Assembly (NCBI GenBank): GCA_021789895.1
Contig: JAJYIU010000023.1
Span: 1-64,000, forward strand
From: Acidobacteriota bacterium
Lineage (GTDB): Bacteria; Acidobacteriota; Terriglobia; Terriglobales; SCQP01
DNA: 64,000 bases
Reading direction: 5' to 3'
Shown here: positions 9,729 through 52,266 of the stretch, in pieces
How positions within the stretch are numbered: the stretch's first letter is position 1
Layout of the letters: every line of letters begins with the position of its first letter
Made by a program: the position numbers and the translations under genes
The notes under the pieces: generated by a model
Told to the model about the DNA's origin: nothing
Databases searched by the model: none
Seen by the model: only the letters and a program-made list of their open reading frames with translations

Positions 9729-11051
9729 TCATTCGTAGCGCAAAGTCTCGGCGGGCGGGACCTGGACGGCGCGCTGCGAAGGATACAGCGTCGCCAGCAG
9801 ACCGATGCCCAGGCTGAGCGCGGACACTTCCACGCCGGCCAGCCAGCCGGCGTGGAAGGGGACATAGCTGATCGAATAAACCGCGGCGGAGACGTGAATC
9901 CACTGATAGCGGTTGGCGGCCCAAGCCAGGAGGAAGGCGGCGAACAGGCCGGCGGCGGTGCCAATCAGGTCAAGCAGCATGCCCTGCAGAATAAAGATGC
10001 GGCGGATCTGGCGGCGCCGGGCGCCGAGCCCGAGCAGGATGGCGATTTCGCGCCGTTTTTCCATCACCAGCATGGTGAGCAGGATGAGGACATTCAAGCC
10101 GGCGACGAAGACGATCAGGCCGATCAGCAACACCGTGCCCAGGCGTTCCAGACTGAGCGCTTGAAACACGGCCTGGTTTTGCGACATCCAGGTCACCGCG
10201 ACGAAATCCGGCCCGGCGGCTCGTTCCGCTCGCCGGGCCACCTGGGGGGCGGCGTAGATATCGTCCAGCCGGAATTCGATGACGCTGGCGCGGTCGCGGC
10301 CGCCGGCCGCGACCGGATGCAAGTTTTGCGCCGCCTGCAGGCTGGTATAGGCCCAACTGGAATCGAAGTCGGCGAAGCCGGAACGAAAGATGCCGGCCAC
10401 GCGGAAAGGGGTGGTGCGGCCGACGTAGCCGAGCGGGGTCAGCACCGCCTGGGGAACGTAAACCTCGACCCAATCGCCGACGTTGACCTGGAGGCGGTTA
10501 GCCAGCTCGCCGCCGAGCAGCAGGTTGGGCGCGCGCGGATGGCCGGCCAGGACGCGCCATCCGCCTTGCCTGACGCGGCTGAGGAGCGAGCCGACGCGCA
10601 GCTCTTCGGCCGGCAGCACGCCCTTGAGCGTCACCTGGGCGGCGCGATTGCCATGGCTGAGCAGGACGCTGTCGTAGAAGGCCGGCGCCAGCGCCACCAC
10701 ATGCGGCAGGCGGCGGAGACGGCGCATGAGGGCGCGGTAATGCGTGAACGCCGCGGGCTCGCGGCGCAGCAGGTTGATTTGGGCGCTGGCGCCGACGAGT
10801 TCATTCTGCAGCGCGTCGCGAAAGCCATCCATGACCGCGAGCGAGAGAATGAGCGCCGCCACGCCGGCGGCGAAAGCCAGCACCGCAATCGCCGCCACTA
10901 CGGAGATTAGGCCGCGGCCGCGCCGGGGGCGCAGATAGCGCCAGGCGATAAAGAATTCCAAGCCCAGGGGGCGGGGCCGGCTGACGCCGCGGCCGCCGCC
11001 GGCGGGCGGGAGGACGGCCGGCTTTTGCTCCGGCCGGTTTTCTGCTGGCAT
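9729..11051 (-). CDS. LolC/LolE-type lipoprotein-releasing permease (FtsX-like)
   Basis: Inner-membrane permease of the ABC family that releases lipoproteins from the inner membrane. With the ATG at 11051 (MPAENRPEQ) the product is 440 aa, begins its first membrane helix after EFFIAWRYLRPRRGRG, has a large periplasmic MacB-like domain (~60-280), and three further helices containing MVMEKRREIAILLGLGARRR, the usual FtsX/LolC cytoplasmic loop. The open frame continues to 11285 but would run through the promoter of the divergent gene. Only one permease is present, so it may act as a homodimer. The divergent neighbour carries a LolD-like ATPase, its probable partner. LolC and LolE cannot be told apart here. 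Confidence 0.88.
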   Translation of the reverse strand: MPAENRPEQKPAVLPPAGGGRGVSRPRPLGLEFFIAWRYLRPRRGRGLISVVAAIAVLAFAAGVAALILSLAVMDGFRDALQNELVGASAQINLLRREPAAFTHYRALMRRLRRLPHVVALAPAFYDSVLLSHGNRAAQVTLKGVLPAEELRVGSLLSRVRQGGWRVLAGHPRAPNLLLGGELANRLQVNVGDWVEVYVPQAVLTPLGYVGRTTPFRVAGIFRSGFADFDSSWAYTSLQAAQNLHPVAAGGRDRASVIEFRLDDIYAAPQVARRAERAAGPDFVAVTWMSQNQAVFQALSLERLGTVLLIGLIVFVAGLNVLILLTMLVMEKRREIAILLGLGARRRQIRRIFILQGMLLDLIGTAAGLFAAFLLAWAANRYQWIHVSAAVYSISYVPFHAGWLAGVEVSALSLGIGLLATLYPSQRAVQVPPAETLRYE

Positions 11052-30848: not shown

Positions 30849-32039
30849 TTAGCTGCCGGGCATCCGGCCCACATCTTGGGTGGCTGCAATTTGCCGATCA
30901 TTGCCGGCGAGATGGATTTTTTGCCACAATTGCTCGCGAATCAAGGCGCGTAAAAACTCGCGCCATCGCGCGCGGGCCAACGCCAGAAAGGCCGGCTTTT
31001 CCGAGGCGGCATCCGGATGGTGCAGCAGCCAATCCAGCAGCGCTTCGGCTTCCAGTTCCTCATCGCCCTCGCCGCGATCGTCCCAACCCTGGGCAAGCAA
31101 GCCGCGTTGCTTGTGCAGGGCGCGATCACGCAGCGCGGTATAAGCTCCCGCCTGCCGCAGCCAGGCGAGCAAATGCGGCTGCGCCGGATCGCCCGCCGGG
31201 CGTGCGGCGGCCGAACGATGAGCCGCCAAGCAGAGTTGCGGCTGCAACCAGAGCTCATCCAGCACCGCTTGCACGCGGAGTTCCAGGGCCGGCTCGGCCG
31301 GCGACTCGGCCTCGGCCGTTGCCATCAAGTGCTGCCAGGCGGTGGTGCGATGAAAAACGAAATTGGGCGCGGACGGGCCAGGTGGATTGGCCAGCAGGCG
31401 TCGCGCCTGGCGCAGCACAGCGAGCGCGTCCCGCCGTTTAAGGTCGAGCTTATGGCGCGGCCACCAGGCGGCAAAACGCGTGAGTTCTTCCGCACTGGCG
31501 CCGCAAGATGCTGCCAATTCGAGGGCCGCAGGATAATCCCGCCGGGGGTAAAACAGTGATTTGGCCGCCGATGCCACGATCCGCCGGGTGCGCGGACCAA
31601 TACAGCCGGCGCGGCGGGCCCGGCGCAGCGTGGCCCGGATATTCACCATAGCCTCGGACAGAGGAAGATAACGGCCGCCGACGCGGGCATAAGCTACGGC
31701 CACCTCGTCATCGTCGCGCAGACGGCGGTCACGATAGGCGGCAAAGATCGCGCCCACGCCGATCATTCCGAAGGCACAAAGTTCGGCGGCACGCAGCGCG
31801 CCCATGCTCGCGGCGCCCAGGACCGTGCACCCCTGATCCAAAGCCCAAAGAATTTCCTTATGCCAGACCGCCGGAACCTGATCGAACTCACCGTCAATCA
31901 GGACCAACAAGCGGGCGCCGGCGCGGACGGCGCGATAGACGTCGCCCTGGGTCACCGGGGGACGATAGTCCGCCCCCGCCAGACAGCGGCATGCTTCGGA
32001 AAGCGACAGGGACGGTCCCAGGAACACGACCGGGCTCAT
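30849..32039 (-). CDS. TfuA-like protein, partner of YcaO
   Basis: A 396-aa TfuA-domain protein. The first ~150 residues carry the family core: VVFLGPSLSLSEA, GDVYRAVRAGARLLVLIDG, VWHKEILWALDQG, GAASMGALRAAEL and the acidic DDDEVAVAYA. In characterised systems TfuA proteins accompany a YcaO enzyme and are needed for backbone thioamidation (for example archaeal McrA and the thiovarsolin pathway). The C-terminal ~230 residues are helical, Arg/Ala-rich and not recognisable. Its ATG overlaps the ycaO stop (ATGA, 32036-32039), so the two are translationally coupled. It is the last gene of the proposed RiPP operon. Confidence 0.9.
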   Translation of the reverse strand: MSPVVFLGPSLSLSEACRCLAGADYRPPVTQGDVYRAVRAGARLLVLIDGEFDQVPAVWHKEILWALDQGCTVLGAASMGALRAAELCAFGMIGVGAIFAAYRDRRLRDDDEVAVAYARVGGRYLPLSEAMVNIRATLRRARRAGCIGPRTRRIVASAAKSLFYPRRDYPAALELAASCGASAEELTRFAAWWPRHKLDLKRRDALAVLRQARRLLANPPGPSAPNFVFHRTTAWQHLMATAEAESPAEPALELRVQAVLDELWLQPQLCLAAHRSAAARPAGDPAQPHLLAWLRQAGAYTALRDRALHKQRGLLAQGWDDRGEGDEELEAEALLDWLLHHPDAASEKPAFLALARARWREFLRALIREQLWQKIHLAGNDRQIAATQDVGRMPGS

Positions 32040-33385
32040 GTGGCACGCTCCTGCGCCCTGCGGGCGCGTCTGCCCGGACGATAATGGGGATCGAAGTGGC
32101 AGCCTTCCAGGCCGGGAACCACCATTTTTACTACAAATATGTCCGATCCGGGCCGGCTAAGGTTGACTGCCACGACGCGCGCCACGCCCAAATCACGCAG
32201 GCGCGCCAAGAGCCAGGCAACATCCTGGCGCAGGCTGGAAGCACGCCAATGCGGCGCAGCCCGAAAATCGCGTTCACCCGCACCCGGCCGCAGGTGGCGA
32301 AAGCGGAAGCGTTTCCAATCCGGATCGCGCAGGCGCAGGTATTCCTCGCGGAAGACGTCGTCGCGCGAGCCGGCGATGAAAGTCAGCCGGCTTTGGGCCG
32401 CTTCGGTGAGAGCGCGCGAGAAGGCCACGCCACGGTCGGGATGGCAGCCCATGCCCAGGGCGTAATAGCCGAAGTGGAGGCGATCTTCACGGCGCTCGCA
32501 GATCATGCAGCGGAAGACGGGGACGCCGGCATCGCCGGCGAGGTCCCAGGCGGTGACATCAATTCCAGCGGCCGCAAAACGCTCGAGTAGTAGACGGCCA
32601 CCAGCGTCGCCGGCGCCGGCTAGCGCGAGGCGGGTGGCGTCGCGTTCCGCATCGGGGCGCAACTGCCAGAGCGCGATGGCGTCGCGCTCGATCACTTCAC
32701 AAAGCCCCGAGCTGACCGCCTCGAGCAGGATATTGCCGGAGGCCAAGCCGTTGGAGTTGGCTTGAAAAAAGCCGCTGCTGGGAGGCCAAGGTAGCGAAGC
32801 ATCGGCGTGCACCAACTCGAAAGGAAGCCAGACCGGCTGCCGCTGCAAAAGGTCGAATCCTTCAATCCAAAAAATCGGAGTTTCCGGGGTCCACTCCCGT
32901 CCGGCGGCGAACGGCAGGTCCTCCATTTCGATCAGCGGCAACTCGCGCACTAGCGAAGCATAGCAGCCAAAGCGCCGCGGCAGGCGGATGCTTTCCGCAT
33001 GCTCCAACTCGATACTTTCCATTACCGCCGAAACGGCGGCGGCAGCCGGCTTGAGTCCTTTCCCTTGCGAGACGGAGAGGTTACGGGAATTGGGGCGAAT
33101 GGCGACCGCGACGGGAATGCCGATGCGGTCGAGGCCGGTAATATCGGCCACCCGAGTGATGCCGAATTCCGCCAGGCGCGGGGACAATTTCGCCAGGGTG
33201 ACGGTGGGCGAGCAGACGCGATGCGTGCCGGCGCGATAACGTTTCCGGCCGGGATCGTCGTCGCCGGGCAGGAGCGACGCGAGTTCCTTCAGATCCGGCG
33301 AGAGCGGTGCATCTTGCTTGAAATTCGCCCCTGGCCGGGAAAATTGAGCTTCGTTTATCATGCCCGGTGGCGGTGAGCTTGGCAT
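32036..33385 (-). CDS. YcaO-domain ATP-dependent backbone-modifying enzyme
   Basis: A 449-aa YcaO protein. The fold's nucleotide-site motifs are visible: NLSVSQGKGLKPAAAAVSA, ESIELEHAE, LASGNILLEAVSSGLCEVI and ERDAIALWQL. YcaO enzymes phosphorylate peptide-bond oxygen to install azolines, amidines or thioamides. The C-terminus lacks the PxPxP ending of azoline-forming members, and no E1-like or ocin-ThiF partner is encoded nearby, whereas TfuA is coupled downstream; thioamidation is therefore the most likely chemistry (inference). The start could be 33385 or the in-frame ATG at 33361; neither has a strong ribosome site. It follows the kinase gene by 21 bp. Confidence 0.92.
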   Translation of the reverse strand: MPSSPPPGMINEAQFSRPGANFKQDAPLSPDLKELASLLPGDDDPGRKRYRAGTHRVCSPTVTLAKLSPRLAEFGITRVADITGLDRIGIPVAVAIRPNSRNLSVSQGKGLKPAAAAVSAVMESIELEHAESIRLPRRFGCYASLVRELPLIEMEDLPFAAGREWTPETPIFWIEGFDLLQRQPVWLPFELVHADASLPWPPSSGFFQANSNGLASGNILLEAVSSGLCEVIERDAIALWQLRPDAERDATRLALAGAGDAGGRLLLERFAAAGIDVTAWDLAGDAGVPVFRCMICERREDRLHFGYYALGMGCHPDRGVAFSRALTEAAQSRLTFIAGSRDDVFREEYLRLRDPDWKRFRFRHLRPGAGERDFRAAPHWRASSLRQDVAWLLARLRDLGVARVVAVNLSRPGSDIFVVKMVVPGLEGCHFDPHYRPGRRARRAQERAT

Positions 33386-33406
33386 GGGGAGCGCGGAAGC
33401 TTGAAC

Positions 33407-35665
33407 TTATGCCTGAGTCGGCGCCGCAGAGTCGTTCGCCAGCGATAAGCCATACCCCGGGCCGATGCGGGCCAAAAACGCTTGCATGCTCGGCTCGTTC
33501 AGAAAGCGGCGAAGCCGGGGCCAATGCTGGAGGGTGCATTTGACCACGAATAATTTATTATCGCGGGCCTGCCAGGCCCGCTCGAACCAAGCCAAGCCGC
33601 CCTCCAGATCTCCCAAAAACAAGCATAGAAAGGCCAGATCGAAGCTGGGCGGGCGCGGGCTGGAGCCGAGCTCGGCGAGAATGGCACGGGCATCGCTTTC
33701 CCGGCCTGCCATGGCATACCCCCAACCCAGATGGCCGCGCGTCCAATGAAATTGCTCAATCAGTCGGTTGCCCTCTTGGTAACGTTCCAAATACCAAAGC
33801 ACCAGCGCCTGCATCGCTTTGAGCGGAAGATAGCCGGGCGAAATGAGCGCGGTGCGATGAATCTGCTCGAGCGCATCCTGATGGCGATCCTGCATGAGCA
33901 AGACCCAGGCCAGATGGCCGCCGGCGATGGGTTCCAAAGGATCGATGGCGAGGGCGCGTTGGGCTTCCAGCAGCGCCTCCCCGGGGCGATCCAGGACGGC
34001 CTGCAATAACATGCTGTAGGCCAGATGGGTTTCGGCGGAGTTCGAATTTTGTGCGAGCGCGTCCTGGAAGGCACGCTCCGCCGCCGGCCAGTCCCAATCA
34101 TAGTTGAGCGCGATCATGCCTGCGGCCAGTTGCGCTTCCGGCAAGCGGGGCTCGAGTTTGAGCGCCTTGCTGAGGGCGGCGCGGGCCAATTGATAAGCTT
34201 CCGCCGGCGGCAGAAATCCATAATTGCCGGCGCGCACATAGCTGCTGGAGAGCGCGGCATAAATAGGGGCGTACGTGGGCTCGAGCTGCAAGGCCTGTTG
34301 AAAATCGCGCCACGCCCGTTGCAATCCCTGCAGCGTCATTTGTTGACCGGCCTGGCGGGCTTTGAGATATAGCCGGTAGGCTGCGGGGTCCACGCGCGCG
34401 CACGGCGCCGACTGGGGCGATTCGACTTCAGGAACGCGAAGCTGGAGCGCGCGCGCAATTTTTTGCGCCACTTCGGCCTGGATGGCGAGCACGTCGCCTA
34501 CGTCGCGGTCGTAAGCTTCGGCCCAAAGCTGGCTCTGGCTGGATAATTCGGTGAGCGCAATGCGAATGCGCAAGCGATTTCCGGTATGGGCCACGCTGCC
34601 CTCCAGCAGCGCGCCGACTCCGAGTTCGCGGCCAATTTCAGCCAACGATTTTGGGCTGTTTTTATAACGCATGGCCGAGCGGGAAGAGATGACGCGCAAG
34701 CCGCGGACTTGGGCCAAGCGAAGCGCAATTTCCTCGGTCATGCCATCGCTGAAATATTCTTCCGCCTCGCCACCGCCGCGATTGACGAGCGGCAGCACCG
34801 CCAACGAAGCCGGCGCCACGGCAGTGGCGGAAGGGGTAGCCCGGGGATGAAGGTCCCGGCCGCGCAAGGCGTCAGCCAATTCGCGCGCGCTAGAAAAACG
34901 ATCAGCGGACTTCTTGGCCAGCAGCCGGTCCAGAATCGGCGCCAGCGCAGGGAAAGGCAGCGGCGGCGGCGTTTCATTCAAAATGCGCAGCGCGGCGCTC
35001 ATGCCGGCCGGCCCGGCGGGATCTAGGAATGGATGGCGGCCAGACAGCATCTGATAAAACACGATGCCCAGGGCAAATAAATCACTGCGGGCATCCAGCG
35101 GTTGCGCCTGCAATTGCTCGGGCGACATATAAGCGAGCGTGCCAATCAGCCAGCCCGGCTGGGTCAGCGCGGTCGCCATCGTTTCCGCCTCCAACACCGC
35201 CAACCGCTTGGCCAGGCCGAAATCGACCACTTTGACGTGCAGGTCGGGGGTCAACATAATGTTGGACGGCTTCAAATCGCGATGCAGAATGCCGCGCGCA
35301 TGCGCCGCAGCCAGCGCGTCGGCGATCTCGAGGGCCAGCTTGACCGCCTGCTCCACCGGCAAGGGCCCCTGGCGCAGGCGTTGGTCCAGGCTTTCGCCCT
35401 GGATATATTCCATCGCGATGTAAGCTACGCCTTCGGCTTCGCCGGCCTCGTAAATTTTGCAAATGAACGGATGGTCAATCGTCGCCGCCGCGCGAGCTTC
35501 CTCGAAGAAACGGCGGCGCGCAGCCTCGCCCGGCAGCTCGGAAGGAGCGAGAAACTTGAGCGCAATATTTCGACCCAGGCGCGGGTCTTCAGCCAGGTAG
35601 ATCTCGCCCATGCCGCCCAGGCCCAGTTTGCGGCCCACCAGATAATGCGAAAATTTCCGCTGCAT
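33407..35665 (-). CDS. Serine/threonine protein kinase with TolB-like and TPR domains
   Basis: A 752-aa soluble protein. Residues ~8-270 are a Hanks-type kinase: GLGGMGEIYLA, the ATP Lys in IALKFL, catalytic loop HRDLKPSN, DFG in VVDFGLA, and GTLAYMSPEQ. Residues ~285-420 resemble the TolB/FlgO-like region found between kinase and TPR parts in this protein class (LAVLPLVNRGGG; YFSDGMTEEIALRLAQ). The rest is a TPR array (LEPTYAPIYAALSSSYV; LAIDPLEPIAGGHLAWVLL). No membrane helix is seen. It sits between the Nif11-like peptide gene (91-bp gap) and ycaO (21-bp gap) on the same strand, so it may control or be co-expressed with peptide production. Confidence 0.92.
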   Translation of the reverse strand: MQRKFSHYLVGRKLGLGGMGEIYLAEDPRLGRNIALKFLAPSELPGEAARRRFFEEARAAATIDHPFICKIYEAGEAEGVAYIAMEYIQGESLDQRLRQGPLPVEQAVKLALEIADALAAAHARGILHRDLKPSNIMLTPDLHVKVVDFGLAKRLAVLEAETMATALTQPGWLIGTLAYMSPEQLQAQPLDARSDLFALGIVFYQMLSGRHPFLDPAGPAGMSAALRILNETPPPLPFPALAPILDRLLAKKSADRFSSARELADALRGRDLHPRATPSATAVAPASLAVLPLVNRGGGEAEEYFSDGMTEEIALRLAQVRGLRVISSRSAMRYKNSPKSLAEIGRELGVGALLEGSVAHTGNRLRIRIALTELSSQSQLWAEAYDRDVGDVLAIQAEVAQKIARALQLRVPEVESPQSAPCARVDPAAYRLYLKARQAGQQMTLQGLQRAWRDFQQALQLEPTYAPIYAALSSSYVRAGNYGFLPPAEAYQLARAALSKALKLEPRLPEAQLAAGMIALNYDWDWPAAERAFQDALAQNSNSAETHLAYSMLLQAVLDRPGEALLEAQRALAIDPLEPIAGGHLAWVLLMQDRHQDALEQIHRTALISPGYLPLKAMQALVLWYLERYQEGNRLIEQFHWTRGHLGWGYAMAGRESDARAILAELGSSPRPPSFDLAFLCLFLGDLEGGLAWFERAWQARDNKLFVVKCTLQHWPRLRRFLNEPSMQAFLARIGPGYGLSLANDSAAPTQA

Positions 35666-35756
35666 GGCGCGCGCCGCAACCCTCCGGCTGCGTCAAGGCA
35701 TGGAACCCCGCGATTCCATGCGGCCTCTTCTAACACCCTTGCGGCCAGGGTAAGCT

Positions 35757-35993
35757 TTATTTAGCCACCCACACGATGCAATTCGCCTCCTGATCCGTAG
35801 CGACGGGAGAGACGGCGTTGAACTTCGCCCGCAAGGCGTTGAAGAGATCGGCCTTGGTGAAGCTGTAACCATGTTTTTGCCCGCTGGCGAGCATGACTTG
35901 AAAAAACTGGTTGCCATTCGCCAGCACTTCCGAGCGCAGCTCCAGATTACTTTGCATTTGCTCCAGAAACGCTTTTGCATCGTCCAAAGCCAT
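35757..35993 (-). CDS. Nif11-like leader peptide, candidate RiPP precursor
   Basis: A 78-aa peptide. Residues 1-~57 match the Nif11-type leader pattern: MALDDAKAFLEQMQSN opens like the family, and HGYSFTKADLFNALRAK (41-57) corresponds to its conserved GF/Y-x-F-(S/T)-x-x-(D/E)-L-x-x-A-L ending. The remaining ~20 residues would be the core, ending ANCIVWVAK (70-78), short, hydrophobic and with one Cys. There is no Gly-Gly cleavage site. An excellent ribosome site, GGAGG, lies 8 bases before the ATG at 35993. It lies 80 bp after the N-methyltransferase gene and 91 bp before the kinase gene, all on one strand. It could be a substrate for YcaO-TfuA, the methyltransferase, or both. Confidence 0.82.
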   Translation of the reverse strand: MALDDAKAFLEQMQSNLELRSEVLANGNQFFQVMLASGQKHGYSFTKADLFNALRAKFNAVSPVATDQEANCIVWVAK

Positions 35994-36073
35994 ATTGAAT
36001 TCCTCCGGGCAAGAAGTCGAGCAGTCCGGTCAGCACGCTTCCACTACAATAGCAAGAAAATAGCGCGGCGGAG

Positions 36074-36862
36074 TCAAGCCTCCGGAAGGCCCAATTTTTT
36101 TGCCATTTCGCCATCGCGCGGAGGCGCGGCGGCGGGGGGAATCAACAACGTCGTGAGGCGGGTGATTTTGGCCGCCGGCAACCGATGGAGCGGCATGGGT
36201 TGGATGCTGGGCGGACAGGCCGGAAAATTGGCGGCCTCGTAACAGATGACTTGGTGGCCGGCGGGATAATAGCGCAGCAACTCCGCCGCCAGCAATTGCA
36301 ATCCGGCCCGGTTCGGCCCGGCCAATTCATATTGATATTGGCCGACAATACCGATTTGCCACAGGATGAGCGCGCACAGCGGATCAGGCCGGCGATGCTG
36401 GAGCAGGAACAGGGTGGCTTCGAAGCACTGATAGCCGGCCGTGGACAGATCGAAATCCAAAGCGGCGCCCAGATCGGCAAACAGGCAATCTTCGGCAGAG
36501 ATACCGGGCAGCATTTCCGCTTCGCAACCGGCGGCGCGGGCGCGGCGCACCGCTTCCGGGCCGAGGTAAGAGAAGACCGCGGGATGACCATAGAGCAGGA
36601 CGCCCAACCGGCAGCCGTCGCGCAAGCGCGAGGCAATATGATCCAGCATGCGCTCGTAGGATTCCTGGCGGGAGCGGCCGGGAAGGAAAAAAGCGTCGAG
36701 CGATTCCGCGCCCGGCTGCAAGCGGCGCAGCCAGGCGGCGGTACCGGGCTCCGAGACCAGGAACAATAGTTTTTGCGCGTGCCGAATCAACCCACGGGTT
36801 TGGAGCGTGACGTGGGAAACCATCTGTATGCCCGCGCCGGCAACCCAGAGCGAGCCGTTCAT
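36074..36862 (-). CDS. Split-borosin-type peptide backbone N-methyltransferase
   Basis: A 262-aa SAM-dependent enzyme of the tetrapyrrole-methylase superfamily that most resembles borosin alpha-N-methyltransferases (OphMA, SonM). Supporting segments: the opening MNGSLWVAGAGIQMVSHV, R65-x3-Y69 in SRQESYERM (equivalent to the catalytic Arg/Tyr pair of OphMA), LLYGHPAVFSYL (89-100), EMLPGISAEDCLFADLG (116-132), QCFEAT and LILWQIGIVG. It lacks a fused core peptide, so it would act in trans as in Shewanella SonM. The ATG overlaps the stop of the small gene upstream (ATGA), with AAGGAG 8 bases before it. Classical CobA or SUMT roles are unlikely: no corrin or haem genes are near. Confidence 0.88.
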   Translation of the reverse strand: MNGSLWVAGAGIQMVSHVTLQTRGLIRHAQKLLFLVSEPGTAAWLRRLQPGAESLDAFFLPGRSRQESYERMLDHIASRLRDGCRLGVLLYGHPAVFSYLGPEAVRRARAAGCEAEMLPGISAEDCLFADLGAALDFDLSTAGYQCFEATLFLLQHRRPDPLCALILWQIGIVGQYQYELAGPNRAGLQLLAAELLRYYPAGHQVICYEAANFPACPPSIQPMPLHRLPAAKITRLTTLLIPPAAAPPRDGEMAKKLGLPEA

Positions 36863-37140
36863 GACTGGGGCTCCTTCGCCGGGGGGGCGGAGGGTTGCGT
36901 TTCGCCGGCGGCCTCCGCCGCTTCCAACAATCCCCTCCAGGCCAGCAGCAACAGATCGTGTTCCGGCGGCAACGCCAGCAGCGTCCGCAGGCGCAAAGCG
37001 TTCGAAGTCAACAGGGCTTGCCGTTCGTCTTCATGCAAGCCGCGTCCGGCCAGCAACGATTCCGGCTGGGCGCGAAATGCCCGCGCTTGGAGCGGATCTT
37101 CCGCCAACTCGATCAGAAAATCCAGCAAGGCTTCTGACAT
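36859..37140 (-). CDS. SonA-like borosin-binding-domain peptide, candidate precursor
   Basis: A 93-aa peptide. Residues 1-~55 (MSEALLDFLIELAEDP..., then FRAQPESLLAGRGLHEDERQALL) follow the LigA-like helical pattern of the borosin-binding domain: a D-P-x-x-x-x-x-F-x-x-x-P-x-x-x-L-x-x-x-G-L-x-x-x-E-x-x-A-L spacing, as in SonA of Shewanella. The part after the domain, PPEHDLLLLAWRGLLEAAE (58-76), is the probable core region, followed by a Pro/Ala tail. It directly precedes, and overlaps by 4 bp, the N-methyltransferase gene. I chose the ATG at 37140 because it starts exactly at the domain; TTG/GTG starts up to 37230 would add a basic extension. Its own ribosome site is weak. Confidence 0.8.
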   Translation of the reverse strand: MSEALLDFLIELAEDPLQARAFRAQPESLLAGRGLHEDERQALLTSNALRLRTLLALPPEHDLLLLAWRGLLEAAEAAGETQPSAPPAKEPQS

Positions 37141-37279
37141 GCTGCCCAGCTTAGCGTAAAACAATCGCCGGGCCGGAAGGTCGCGTTGCGCCGCTTCTCC
37201 CACCGGCTCTCGTCCATGCAGTACGGCCAAACGAGTCAGTTAACGCCTTCCGCCGGTGGACCTGAATTCACGGGGATGC

Positions 37280-38080
37280 TCATAGCAGTTTGCCGGGGCT
37301 ACACGGGGTGAATTCCTGCCATTGGGTTTTGAACCGGGCCGGGTCCGAAACCCATTGGATTGCGGACGGGGCAGCCTCGAACTGCGCGTAGATCGGCCGG
37401 GCAGGGTTTAAGCCCAGCTCGCGATAATCCCGCGGAGGGCCGAGGCGGAGCTCACTTCGGAAGTAACGCGGATTCGGCTGCCATTCGAGTTGCCCGTCTT
37501 TTCCGAGCCAGGGATACCAGGCCAGCCCGCCTCGCGCCCGCACCTCATCATAGAGAAAGCCATATTCGCGGTCACACCAAGCGCCGAAGGTCAACGGCTG
37601 TTCAAAATCGGCGCTGATGGTGGCGTGAGCCCATCCGGGCGGGACCACCACCACCTCGCCCGGCCCGGCTTCCACGGCAAAACAACGGCCGGGGTGGTCG
37701 GCGGCGAATTCCTGCATATAAATCACGGCCCGGCCGCTCCAGATCTCGTAAAGTTCGGGTGGCGACCATCCGCTATGCTTCGAGACCCGGTGGATATGGC
37801 CCTGGCTGCGGACCGGTTCGTTTCCAAGCTTCCCCGCCGCAAAAGCGACCACCCCGAAGAGCAGCATCCTGGATTGGAGTTCATCCCGATGCTCCCGCTT
37901 GCCAACATCCATGACGATGGCGTAGACGGGATCCGGACCGGCGCAGGCAGGATCGCGCAGGCTGGAGCGAATCGCATCCAGGCGGCGGAATTCCGCTGCC
38001 GGACCGAACACATCCGGCCGGTATTGAAACCCCAGCGGATTGTAGGTGGCATATACGCCAATGCCCGGATCAAAGCTCAT
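37280..38080 (-). CDS. Cupin-type glucose-6-phosphate isomerase (second copy)
   Basis: A 266-aa cupin protein of the archaeal-type phosphoglucose isomerase family. The metal-binding cupin motif is present: H-x-H in QGHIHRV, Glu in PPELYEIW, and the distal His in PPGWAHAT. It would interconvert glucose- and fructose-6-phosphate, or a related aldose/ketose phosphate. The ATG at 38080 overlaps the stop of the upstream mannose-6-phosphate isomerase gene (ATGA). Its ~80 C-terminal residues exceed the core cupin and are unrecognised. It is the last sugar gene before the RiPP operon, with 139 bp between. Confidence 0.8.
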   Translation of the reverse strand: MSFDPGIGVYATYNPLGFQYRPDVFGPAAEFRRLDAIRSSLRDPACAGPDPVYAIVMDVGKREHRDELQSRMLLFGVVAFAAGKLGNEPVRSQGHIHRVSKHSGWSPPELYEIWSGRAVIYMQEFAADHPGRCFAVEAGPGEVVVVPPGWAHATISADFEQPLTFGAWCDREYGFLYDEVRARGGLAWYPWLGKDGQLEWQPNPRYFRSELRLGPPRDYRELGLNPARPIYAQFEAAPSAIQWVSDPARFKTQWQEFTPCSPGKLL

Positions 38081-39807
38081 GGGTTGGTTCTCACGAACGC
38101 TTTGATCGTGGCACAACGGCCCGGCCGCGCCGGCTGAATCGTGTAGCGCCCGACGGCCGCGGGAACAATGAAGGTCTCGGCATAATGAATCACCAAGGGC
38201 TCGAAAGCGTGATCCGGGCTTTCGACCACGACCGCATCGCCCGCCACCAAGTTCAGCACGTTGACGCCTCCGTGGGTATGATGCTCAACCTTTTGACGGA
38301 ACCAGTGGCGCCGCGTCTCGATAAATTCCCGCTCGTGCAATCCCGTACGCTCCTCCGACCACCCCTCGTGGGAAGCCAGCCTTTCCGTGCGATGCAGCAG
38401 ATTCTGCCGGACCCAAGGCGTGGTGGAATTCCACTGGATGTTGTTCCGTCCGTGCTCAAGGTGAATCGGCCGGGGTAAACCATCCAGGCCCAAACGGCCC
38501 CAGTCCCAGAGTTTGAAGGTGAAAATATACGGCGTGGCGCTGATCTCAAGCACCATACAGTTTTTGCCCGAGCAGTGGATGGTTCCCGCGGGGATGAGGA
38601 CGTGGTCATGCTGCTTCACCGGCCAGCGGTTCACGAACTGCCCGGCGGGGAAAGGGGCGCCGCCTTGCTGCGCCCGTTCTAAAGCGCGGAGCATCCCGAC
38701 CGGCTGGATGTTTTCCTGCAACCCCAAATACACCACGGCATCCTTGCCGGCATCGAGCAGGTAATAACTTTCATCCTGGGTATAATGCATGCCGAATTTA
38801 TCTTGAATATATTCGGTCAGCGGGTGGACCTGGAGCGAGAGATTCCCCCCGTCCATGGTGTCGAGCATATCGAAACGAATCGGAAATTCCCTGCCAAAAC
38901 GCGCATAGACGGCTTCACCCAGCAGCTCTCGCGGATGAGTGAAGACCAGATCAATCGCCGGCACCTCCAGGCGAACTTCACCCAACCCCAGCAGCAGGCT
39001 ATTTTCTTCCGGCACGCAGTCGAAACACCAGGCAAAATTCGGCGGATCTTCCGGAAGCCCGATCACCCGGCGCATCCATTCTCCACCCCACGGCCCCGGA
39101 TCGAAGAAGGGCACCACGCGAAACGGCCGCCGCACCACGGCGGCGAGGGCGCTCCGGAAAAGATCGCCCGAGATCAATTTCGGGTCATCCCGCCGGTTGG
39201 TGTCTAAAACGAAATCGGCGCGCGGCAGAAGGCGCTGCTTCAGCCGGTCCGCCGCGCGCCAATCCACAAAAAACGCGCGTTTATACTTGAGCGAGGCGCG
39301 CTCCAGGTGATTCTCCGCTCCCAGGTTAGGAATTTCGTTGTTCCTTTGACGAGTCTGGATTTCCCAGCGCGCCAGATCGGCGTAGATCAGGACATCCGCC
39401 TCGGGCGCCAACAAGGCTGCGCCGGTGCCGATCACGAGCACGCCGCCCGCGGATTCCGCAATGCTCTTTCTCGCGGCGTCGAATTTCTTCCGGTCGAAAA
39501 AGTCAGCCAGTTCGAGGCCATTCATCCTGCCAAAAACCGGGTCCTCGCCCAAATAAGGCGCCAGCATGGCCTCGATTTCCGGGGGAGACTGCAAGCACTC
39601 GCTCGCGCGAAAGATACGCGAGGGCCGCAGCGCGTTCGCGATCGCCTGCTCGATTGGCTCGACCAAAACGCCGGGATAGCACTCGATACATAGCCGGCCG
39701 CCGCGGCAGCGGCGGAGGCAATCGGCAATGGCCGGCCACCCGACCGCACAGTCGCTGGAAAAAGCGCTGATGGCCACCGTGGGCTGGGTATCGTAGCGGG
39801 AAGGCAT
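38077..39807 (-). CDS. Class I mannose-6-phosphate isomerase, long form
   Basis: A 576-aa protein. The C-terminal half (~210-576) is a class I phosphomannose isomerase cupin: zinc-site motifs GGNLSLQVHPLTEYIQ, QDESYYLLDA and HVLIPAGTIHCSG. The N-terminal ~200 residues resemble the kinase-like or substrate-binding domain found in the long bacterial forms (ECYPGVLVEPIEQAI; GGVLVIGTGAALLAPEADVLIY; ARWEIQTRQRN). No Walker A is visible, so an active kinase there is unlikely. It interconverts mannose- and fructose-6-phosphate. Start and stop overlap the flanking ROK kinase (TGATG) and cupin isomerase (ATGA) genes, defining a tight operon. Confidence 0.86.
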   Translation of the reverse strand: MPSRYDTQPTVAISAFSSDCAVGWPAIADCLRRCRGGRLCIECYPGVLVEPIEQAIANALRPSRIFRASECLQSPPEIEAMLAPYLGEDPVFGRMNGLELADFFDRKKFDAARKSIAESAGGVLVIGTGAALLAPEADVLIYADLARWEIQTRQRNNEIPNLGAENHLERASLKYKRAFFVDWRAADRLKQRLLPRADFVLDTNRRDDPKLISGDLFRSALAAVVRRPFRVVPFFDPGPWGGEWMRRVIGLPEDPPNFAWCFDCVPEENSLLLGLGEVRLEVPAIDLVFTHPRELLGEAVYARFGREFPIRFDMLDTMDGGNLSLQVHPLTEYIQDKFGMHYTQDESYYLLDAGKDAVVYLGLQENIQPVGMLRALERAQQGGAPFPAGQFVNRWPVKQHDHVLIPAGTIHCSGKNCMVLEISATPYIFTFKLWDWGRLGLDGLPRPIHLEHGRNNIQWNSTTPWVRQNLLHRTERLASHEGWSEERTGLHEREFIETRRHWFRQKVEHHTHGGVNVLNLVAGDAVVVESPDHAFEPLVIHYAETFIVPAAVGRYTIQPARPGRCATIKAFVRTNP

Positions 39808-40748
39808 CAGTCCGCCTGGCCTTGCAGTAGCGGAATTGCGCCCAGCAGCGCCGCCTGATTCCCCAATTGGGCGCCCTGCAGGCTAACCTTTCCCCATGGC
39901 GTCCAGGCATGGCGAGCGACATAATCCTGGAGAAATGGCAGGATCGCGGCAGCACTCTTCATCACCCCGCCGCCGATGATCACCATTTCCGGATCGTAGG
40001 CGTGGATAAGGCCCACGGTTGCCGCTCCCCAAATTTTCAGGCACCGGTCCCGCACCTCCATCGCCGCAGCATCCCCCGCGCTCGCATGGTGGAACAAACG
40101 CTCGAAGGTAATCTGCTTTTCGCGAGCCAGCAAGCTGGAGGCAAACCCGCTCGCGGCGCGGCAGAGTTCCGGCAACGACCATCCGGAAGCCTCCGCCTCG
40201 ACGCAGCCGATGGCGCCGCAGGTGCAACGCCTGCCGTTATAAAGCACCGGAAGATGGCCGCCGAGGCACCCCGCCTGGGCATGCTTGCCGCGAAGAAGCC
40301 GCCGCTGAATCATGGCCGCTCCTCCGACTCCGGTCCCCAGGGTAATCATGACAATGTCTTCCATCCCCTGCCCCGCGCCCGCATACCATTCCCCCAGCAA
40401 CGCCATGCGGGCGTCATTTTCAATCTCGAAGCGCAGTCCCAACGAGGTTTCACACCATGCTTTCAGATGCAGGCGCGGAGCGTCATCGTATTTGGCGTTG
40501 GTGGAAGCCACGCGGCCGCCGGCATGATCCGCCAGCCCGCAAAAGGAAAACGCCAAGCCGGCACATGCTGAAGCCGGGGTGTCCGCCTCGTGCAGGAGCG
40601 AGCGCAAGGCGCCGGCCAGCCGCGGAAGGAGGGGCGCAAGCCCGCCCGCTCCATCGGCGGCCAGCGTTTTCGCATGGAGGATGGCGCGATCCTCGATCAG
40701 CGCGCAGGCGGCATGCGTGCCGCCGAGATCTACGGCCAGCGCTTTCAC
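39807..40748 (-). CDS. ROK family sugar kinase (glucokinase-like)
   Basis: A 313-aa ROK-family kinase that would phosphorylate glucose or another hexose with ATP. Visible motifs are the phosphate-binding LAVDLGGTHAACALI at the N-terminus, the catalytic Asp in ENDARMALLGEW, GTGVGGAAM, and the zinc-type ROK signature CTCGAIGCVEAEASG. I choose the GTG at 40748 because it begins immediately at the fold (VKALAVDLGGT) and forms a GTGA overlap with the stop of the upstream cupin gene. The upstream in-frame extension to 40904 has no homology. It is flanked by isomerases for its expected product. Confidence 0.9.
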   Translation of the reverse strand: MKALAVDLGGTHAACALIEDRAILHAKTLAADGAGGLAPLLPRLAGALRSLLHEADTPASACAGLAFSFCGLADHAGGRVASTNAKYDDAPRLHLKAWCETSLGLRFEIENDARMALLGEWYAGAGQGMEDIVMITLGTGVGGAAMIQRRLLRGKHAQAGCLGGHLPVLYNGRRCTCGAIGCVEAEASGWSLPELCRAASGFASSLLAREKQITFERLFHHASAGDAAAMEVRDRCLKIWGAATVGLIHAYDPEMVIIGGGVMKSAAAILPFLQDYVARHAWTPWGKVSLQGAQLGNQAALLGAIPLLQGQAD

Positions 40749-41302
40749 GCAACTTCCACCAGAGCGGGCGTGCCGTTGATATTTCGAAGCCGGGCGCTGA
40801 AACCCCGGGAGGCGATCGTGCCGTAGTCGTGCCCGGCATCGCTGGGCCAGCAGGCGAGAAACGACAGCAGCGAATCCCCGGTATTGGCCACGCGATGCGC
40901 GCAATGAAAGGGAATGTAATGGATGGACCCGGGGCGCATCGGCTCGAAAACCGTGCGGCCGTTTTCGTCCATCAGAATCAGGGCGCCGCTCCCCGCAGCG
41001 GTGATGTAGAACTCGCTGCGGTTGCGGTTCAGGTGAAAATGCCCCTTGGTCATGAAGTACTCATCCCCCACCCGGCCGGGCTCGATCAACGTGGTTCCGA
41101 GAAACAGCCCGCCTTCCTGTCCTTCGGGCGCCGGCAGCCAGGCTTGAACCCGGTAAACCAGTTTCCCTGGATCCAGATGCTGGCGGGCGGGTTCATCGCG
41201 GTAATAGCCTTGCATATCGGCGACGGTGCAGCGCTTTTCGTGCACGGTTGCGCCAGTGATCTCGGCGGTTGAGAAATTCAACCTGGGATGGGCAGTGTTC
41301 AT
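40745..41302 (-). CDS. Cupin-type glucose-6-phosphate isomerase (first copy)
   Basis: A 185-aa cupin of the GPI family, the size of archaeal phosphoglucose isomerases. Metal ligands are H-x-H in TKGHFHLN, Glu in RSEFYITAAG and the distal His in PFHCAHRVAN. The first residues (STAEITGATVHEKRCTVADM) also fit the family. The start is either the ATG at 41302 or the one at 41335; neither has a clear ribosome site, and I prefer the shorter one. It is the first gene of the four-gene set cupin-ROK-PMI-cupin on the minus strand. The 131 bp upstream, before the oxidoreductase stop, is free of genes and may hold its promoter. Confidence 0.86.
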   Translation of the reverse strand: MNTAHPRLNFSTAEITGATVHEKRCTVADMQGYYRDEPARQHLDPGKLVYRVQAWLPAPEGQEGGLFLGTTLIEPGRVGDEYFMTKGHFHLNRNRSEFYITAAGSGALILMDENGRTVFEPMRPGSIHYIPFHCAHRVANTGDSLLSFLACWPSDAGHDYGTIASRGFSARLRNINGTPALVEVA

Positions 41303-52178: not shown

Positions 52179-52266
52179 GCTGGAGTGGCGGAATTGGCAG
52201 ACGCAGCAGACTCAAAATCTGCCGGGGCTTAGCCTCGTGGGGGTTCAACTCCCCCCTCCAGCACCA
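52179..52266 (+). tRNA. tRNA-Leu (anticodon CAA)
   Basis: An 88-nt type II tRNA. Acceptor stem GCTGGAG pairs with CTCCAGC, followed by ACCA encoded in the gene. The D-arm is TGGCGGAATTGGCAGACGC, the anticodon arm GCAGA-CTCAAAA-TCTGC gives anticodon CAA, then a variable arm (cggggcttagcctcg) and T-arm GGGGGTTCAACTCCCCC. The long variable arm and the CAA anticodon identify leucine. Confidence 0.97.

Follow-up and report, generated by a model that had tools for sequence, protein, structure and literature searches.

The 93-residue product of a small gene that overlaps a SonM-like α-N-methyltransferase (MT) gene, in the 64,000-nt stretch of Acidobacteriota contig JAJYIU010000023.1 analysed here (the window), is most probably a substrate of that enzyme and not only its docking partner. 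On balance we regard it as a split-borosin precursor (type IV-like), whose N-terminal borosin-binding domain (BBD) would bind the MT, whose following segment would be methylated and whose tail would serve as a follower. The genes concerned lie on one strand in the transcription order 93-mer, MT, Nif11 precursor, kinase-TPR protein, YcaO and TfuA (Table 1).

Table 1. Positions in the window of the genes and of the putative core.
Feature	Position	Strand	Remarks
93-aa BBD peptide gene	36859..37140	minus	product MSEALLDFLIELAEDPLQARAFRAQPESLLAGRGLHEDERQALLTSNALRLRTLLALPPEHDLLLLAWRGLLEAAEAAGETQPSAPPAKEPQS; BBD is residues 1-56
Putative core EHDLLLLAWRG, residues 60-70	36931..36963	minus	ungapped register with L121; candidate methylation segment
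SonM-like α-N-methyltransferase, 262 aa	36074..36862	minus	counterparts of SonM R67, Y71 and Y93 conserved; Phe59 at the position of SonM Y58
Nif11-leader RiPP precursor, 78 aa	35757..35993	minus	ends ...ATDQEANCIVWVAK; PF07862 37.5 bits, cutoff 23.8
Ser/Thr protein kinase with TPR region, 752 aa	33407..35665	minus	PF00069 E 1.1e-44
YcaO, 449 aa	32036..33385	minus	PF02624 E 2.2e-75
TfuA, 396 aa	30849..32039	minus	PF07812 E 1.1e-44; NF033432 210 bits, cutoff 235

The 93-codon frame is confirmed as a real gene with a real BBD and not a chance open frame. Scored with a BBD profile that was made from 35 other peptides and left the window out, it reaches 48.6 bits (E 1.8e-14), and nothing else among the 615 open reading frames of the window reaches E 10. 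The family profile also recovers, at 1e-7, the OphMA clasp, a region that has been called homologous to the BBD (PMC8429565). Codon usage of the frame fits that of the neighbouring genes (+44 bits); of the overlapping frames on the opposite strand, the two longest score -17 and -71 and the third, of 80 aa, +23. PDB matches obtained by single-sequence phmmer are SonA chains only (best E 0.0053). AlphaFold2, run with a 36-row alignment (mean pLDDT 81), predicts five helices (residues 3-14, 16-24, 26-30, 37-44 and 48-55) matching those of SonA, and a sixth, of lower confidence, at residues 59-78. The top ten Foldseek matches to this model are all SonA (probability 0.96-1.00, TM by target length 0.66-0.80), the first-ranked with a probability of 1.00 and a TM of 0.80. 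The profile, the predicted helices and the Foldseek matches uphold the SonA-like BBD that the initial annotation had placed at the N-terminus. Its description of this region as LigA-like holds for the fold, since the model superposes on LigA/DesB by VIA-align over residues 1-75 (Z 9.0-9.5, rmsd 2.0, 69 aligned), with the helix over the core included, but Pfam LigA scores 13.5 bits against a cutoff of 25.3, so the domain is recognised via the borosin family and not LigA itself. PF07862 (Nif11) does not match the 93-mer, and no LigB dioxygenase is encoded among the scanned neighbours (30849-40754). A single-sequence search found no second BBD in this genome. Within its own family, four other genomes gave weak matches to the 93-mer (E 0.02-0.08), none of them convincing as orthologues.

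The adjoining enzyme is a SonM-like N-methyltransferase, as first annotated: it matches SonM at E 4.9e-52 and has the TP-methylase fold, and no further MT of the SonM type was found in the genome. R65, Y69 and Y91 correspond to SonM R67, Y71 and Y93, and an alignment of 105 relatives shows that the equivalents of F99, E146, W166 and Q167 are also kept. The exception is the position of SonM Y58, where the enzyme has the only Phe among the 105 MTs; Y stands there in 86 and N in 17, the latter on our reading mostly an alignment-shifted cyanobacterial loop. Since SonM Y58F keeps activity, reduced by a fall in kcat of about 15-fold (PMC8429565), Phe59 is treated as a variant site that lowers, without denying, the expectation that the enzyme works like SonM. 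A quickly built tree places the MT on a long branch by itself, without a supported sister. Translational coupling of the two genes, as initially suggested, is supported by the ATGA at which the stop codon of the 93-mer shares 4 nt with the MT start, an overlap of a length also found between BBD and MT genes in five other loci (L080, L090, L113, L127 and L128). A BBD frame is present in 70 of the 79 best MT loci, and the BBD-MT gene pair is therefore the norm in this family.

The initial annotation preferred a binding-only adaptor to a true substrate on two grounds, a Leu-rich core and a tail longer than that of SonA. The EHDLLLLAWRG segment and the Pro/Ala tail are both present, but a comparison with 65 other BBD peptides from related MT loci shows that both fall within the family range. 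The best hydrophobic 6-mer, LLLLAW, begins 9 residues past the BBD (median 9, interquartile range 7-11 in the others) and scores 2.68 against a family median of 2.10, a score that a shuffled tail reaches in 7% of cases. Leu-rich cores occur elsewhere in the family (AMILLLL, with MILLLL, in L048; GGLLILLAFDEEE, with LLILLA, in L127), and 17 of the 65 peptides have followers of at least 20 aa, long Pro-rich tails being found in the cyanobacterial L055, L057, L073, L076 and others. Hence neither the Leu-rich core nor the long tail rules out a substrate, and the adaptor is not supported as the leading reading. Beta-branched residues (Ile, Val, Thr) are absent from the 6-mer, as they are from those of three of the 65 others. 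Its helical moment is in the top 7%, and it lies within a predicted 20-residue amphipathic helix; in SonM-R67A, the unmethylated core of SonA was likewise observed to be helical (PMC8429565). The methylated residues of SonA, Leu63 and Ile65 (PMC8429565), align with Leu64 and Leu66 of the 93-mer in an ungapped comparison with the Shewanella peptide L121 (offset one). The suggestion that homologues be judged by conserved residues after position 55 proved non-discriminating: past the BBD, residue identity is lost across the whole family, and hydrophobic character alone is kept in register. From these alignments, the Leu63-66 stretch is a likely methylation site, and backbone N-methylation of the 93-mer would most likely fall within residues 61-70, mainly at Leu64 and Leu66.

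We therefore propose the following scheme. The N-terminal five-helix BBD would dock on the MT made from the overlapping gene, and residues 61-70 (HDLLLLAWRG), set off by a short linker, would enter the active site, where backbone amides, likeliest those of Leu64 and Leu66, would be methylated; the Pro/Ala tail would be a follower that is taken off later. The pair heads a probably co-transcribed gene run, in which the gene for a separate Nif11 precursor comes next, then that for the kinase and then YcaO and TfuA. Counted against the split-borosin reading are the Leu-only core, its predicted helix, the 7% of shuffled tails that equal its hydrophobic score, Phe59, the long branch of the MT and the second precursor in the operon.

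That something besides the 93-mer might be modified was a useful point of the initial annotation and leads to this second precursor, whose C-terminus is NCIVWVAK. It is the sole Nif11 of the genome, has no orthologue in 396 phylum genomes or on plasmids, and its model matches best, if weakly (Z 5.6), the solved Nif11 leader 9zn4, with no SonA among the matches listed. The YcaO, likewise the only one in the genome, has as its best NCBIfam match the McrA thioamidation YcaO, below the equivalog cutoff of that model; TfuA overlaps it by 4 nt, and no azoline partner protein was seen in the operon. Sugar genes (a cupin/G6P-isomerase-like gene at 37280-38080, a ROK kinase and a Gfo/Idh oxidoreductase) lie 139 nt upstream in the same orientation, and downstream of TfuA a helicase-domain gene occupies the other strand. 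A promoter and terminator scan gave background levels, and an Rfam scan for riboswitches and RNA elements returned only one tRNA, at 52179. Ser/Thr kinases occur within 3.5 kb of the borosin MT in 27 of 79 loci (L055-L133), and also in L044, L047, L048 and the window (33407-35665), with a density of 0.158 per 2.5 kb adjoining the MT gene and 0.029 at 5-7.5 kb.

The operon could hold two independent, adjacent RiPP systems, each with its own product: the borosin pair, and a unit of Nif11, kinase and YcaO-TfuA. We take this to fall just short of probable; it concerns the operon and is compatible with the 93-mer as a split-borosin precursor. Each module also exists by itself in other loci. No MT accompanies the TfuA loci that come closest within the phylum, and two of these (L142, L141) encode a clear small peptide themselves. 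In L142 the order is the same as here, a kinase, an 87-aa peptide ending GGSSGCVIAVIGPSC, YcaO and TfuA. In L167 a TPR protein is followed by a Nif11 peptide ending STCFVPFSEAPGR and a further frame, read as a cyclodehydratase, and the BBD-MT pair of that genome sits on another contig. All other BBD-MT loci in the sample are without TfuA, and in the window the MT and Nif11 genes are separated by 80 nt, the latter with a strong Shine-Dalgarno sequence (GGAGGA) of its own. Against a separation, the genes share a strand with short gaps, terminator-like sites are no more frequent than in shuffles, and it is precisely at this locus that the genome has its only YcaO and its only Nif11. The kinase is moreover nearer to kinases that flank borosin MTs, the closest sampled (323-387 bits), than to the YcaO-linked kinase of L142 (224 bits).

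That YcaO-TfuA clusters can carry Nif11 precursors is established (PMC8120280). MT-less YcaO-module precursors likewise end in a Cys with hydrophobic residues after it (...GGSSGCVIAVIGPSC in L142, ...STCFVPFSEAPGR in L150), the typical pattern for them here; NCIVWVAK is therefore assigned to YcaO-TfuA first, and this pair most likely thioamidates the Nif11-borne core. In L141, YcaO and TfuA are followed by a 71-aa peptide (9837-10052), with no MT nearby, that gives weak BBD, LigA (0.006) and Frankia_peptide (3e-5) matches, and a BBD/LigA-like leader fold may thus also serve YcaO-TfuA. L140 has a YcaO-TfuA pair beside a larger gene that looks like a B12-radical-SAM protein.

The NCIVWVAK tail also bears on the binding-only adaptor proposed initially. 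In the form considered here, the BBD would dock on the MT and open it, and the Nif11-borne CIVWVA would be methylated in trans, giving one peptide with N-methyls and a thioamide. This tail, on the second precursor of the operon, resembles the borosin cores IVIWIV (L103) and PIFWIIVR (L079), and the stretch of the 93-mer that looks like a core is Leu-only and prone to form a helix. There is also precedent for a core-less BBD in one acidobacterial family: in G227, G239, G262 and L102 it is fused to an MT without R67/Y71/Y93 equivalents, next to an active MT and a repeat protein that is coding but lacks a BBD. Yet the same Cys-hydrophobic ending occurs in the MT-less precursors of L142 and L150, and the BBD alone inhibits SonM (Ki 3.9 uM; PMC8429565). 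A reading of the Nif11 leader as a second BBD was not established, the match being unconvincing (hhalign probability 32%, E 5e-4) and its model fitting a Nif11 structure best. In the literature searched, with the main borosin surveys outside its scope, no Nif11-type leader is linked to borosins. We consider the adaptor unlikely, and still more doubtful the fuller claim that the BBD is a detachable adaptor, the MT acting in trans on CIVWVA and YcaO-TfuA also thioamidating it to give a hybrid peptide. Least probable of all is a degenerating or repurposed pair, in which the enzyme works slowly or not at all and the peptide, without a modified core, is a structural partner resembling LigA: the unique Tyr58-to-Phe change, the long branch of the MT and the LigA/DesB superposition (best Z 9.5) fit it, but the frames are open and overlapping with a normal coding signal, the R67/Y71/Y93/W166/Q167 equivalents are kept and the scanned neighbours lack a LigB dioxygenase.

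Other arrangements of the BBD were encountered among the sampled loci. It is fused N-terminally to a degenerate MT (P/T/H at R67/Y71/Y93) in L046:5471-8047, L045:2191-4959, L102:2208-4784 and L049:442-2177; these fusions overlap an active MT and adjoin a 248-312 aa repeat protein (SPDGLQALKLAPEDGLSAAKAAPD...) without a BBD. Fusion and repeat genes look functional, because substitutions in both favour third codon positions, and the BBD is apparently split from its core in these four loci. BBD peptides with Lys/Arg-rich tails (L042:1533-3316, L162:1207-3024, L161:8417-9561, L078:6650-6970, L072:3484-3741 and L088:4836-5084) lack an obvious hydrophobic core, L162 having a Lys-rich N-terminus instead; in L042 a second, catalytically degenerate MT overlaps the active one. 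Tandem repeated cores (DAAIIKGYAP..., AAIKAKTAP...) occur in L124:9970-11439 and L044:13673-14272, apparent multi-core borosin precursors. Two of 38 BBD family members (L048:7643-7858 and L119:9774-9977) exceed the Nif11 Pfam cutoff, and annotation by Pfam only can therefore mislabel a borosin precursor as Nif11.

The combination of genes in the window is unusual. Neither Nif11 nor TfuA was found near related MTs in about 95 loci (79 contig, 11 phylum and 6 class loci), in a search by similarity to the proteins of the window itself, which distant relatives could escape, and with several loci on short contigs; no second locus with the same gene set occurs in this sample. A SagD-like YcaO lies upstream of a borosin MT and BBD peptide in two cyanobacterial loci (L066:3231-12202 and L073:1069-5617), the L073 frame being short and possibly broken. 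No report joining borosins to TfuA/YcaO or Nif11 was found in literature whose scope excludes the main borosin surveys (types V-X, Lee et al. 2024). The BBD-MT pair is probably a further member of the split borosins, and in the loci and literature covered its Nif11/YcaO-TfuA setting appears to be new.

Backbone N-methylation and thioamidation both stabilize peptides and aid their passage across membranes. An operon encoding enzymes for both would give a test bed for combining them, and a BBD working apart from its core, if true, would make the MT programmable. With the 93-mer comes a candidate core that is Leu-only and helix-prone, and with the MT a natural Tyr-to-Phe active site that can be compared with the kinetic data for SonM. 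The unusual point is that a peptide which very probably docks on its MT shares an operon not only with the MT gene but with a second peptide and genes for another backbone modification, sulfur insertion.

Among known systems, SonA-SonM of Shewanella oneidensis (PMC8429565) shares with this locus a separate small precursor with a five-helix BBD, an adjoining MT of ~263 aa, a hydrophobic core at residues ~62-71 and most catalytic residues. Unlike there, the precursor gene here precedes and overlaps that of the MT, the core is Leu-only and not YLVI, Phe replaces Tyr58, a follower of ~25 aa carries the Pro/Ala tail, and the operon adds Nif11, kinase, YcaO and TfuA. The YcaO-TfuA clusters (PMC8120280) have the same adjacent YcaO and TfuA and a Nif11 precursor, which here are joined to a borosin MT and BBD peptide. 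LigA of the LigAB/DesB dioxygenases has the same helical fold as the 93-mer model, but the 93-mer stays below the Pfam LigA cutoff and has no LigB among its scanned neighbours. The cyanobacterial borosin loci L055-L076 resemble the window in their BBD peptide, short hydrophobic core, long Pro-rich follower and nearby kinase; they also have TPR proteins and, in two cases (L066, L073), a nearby YcaO of the SagD-like, azoline type, whereas their BBD lies 1-3 kb from the MT, beside which no TfuA or Nif11 was found.
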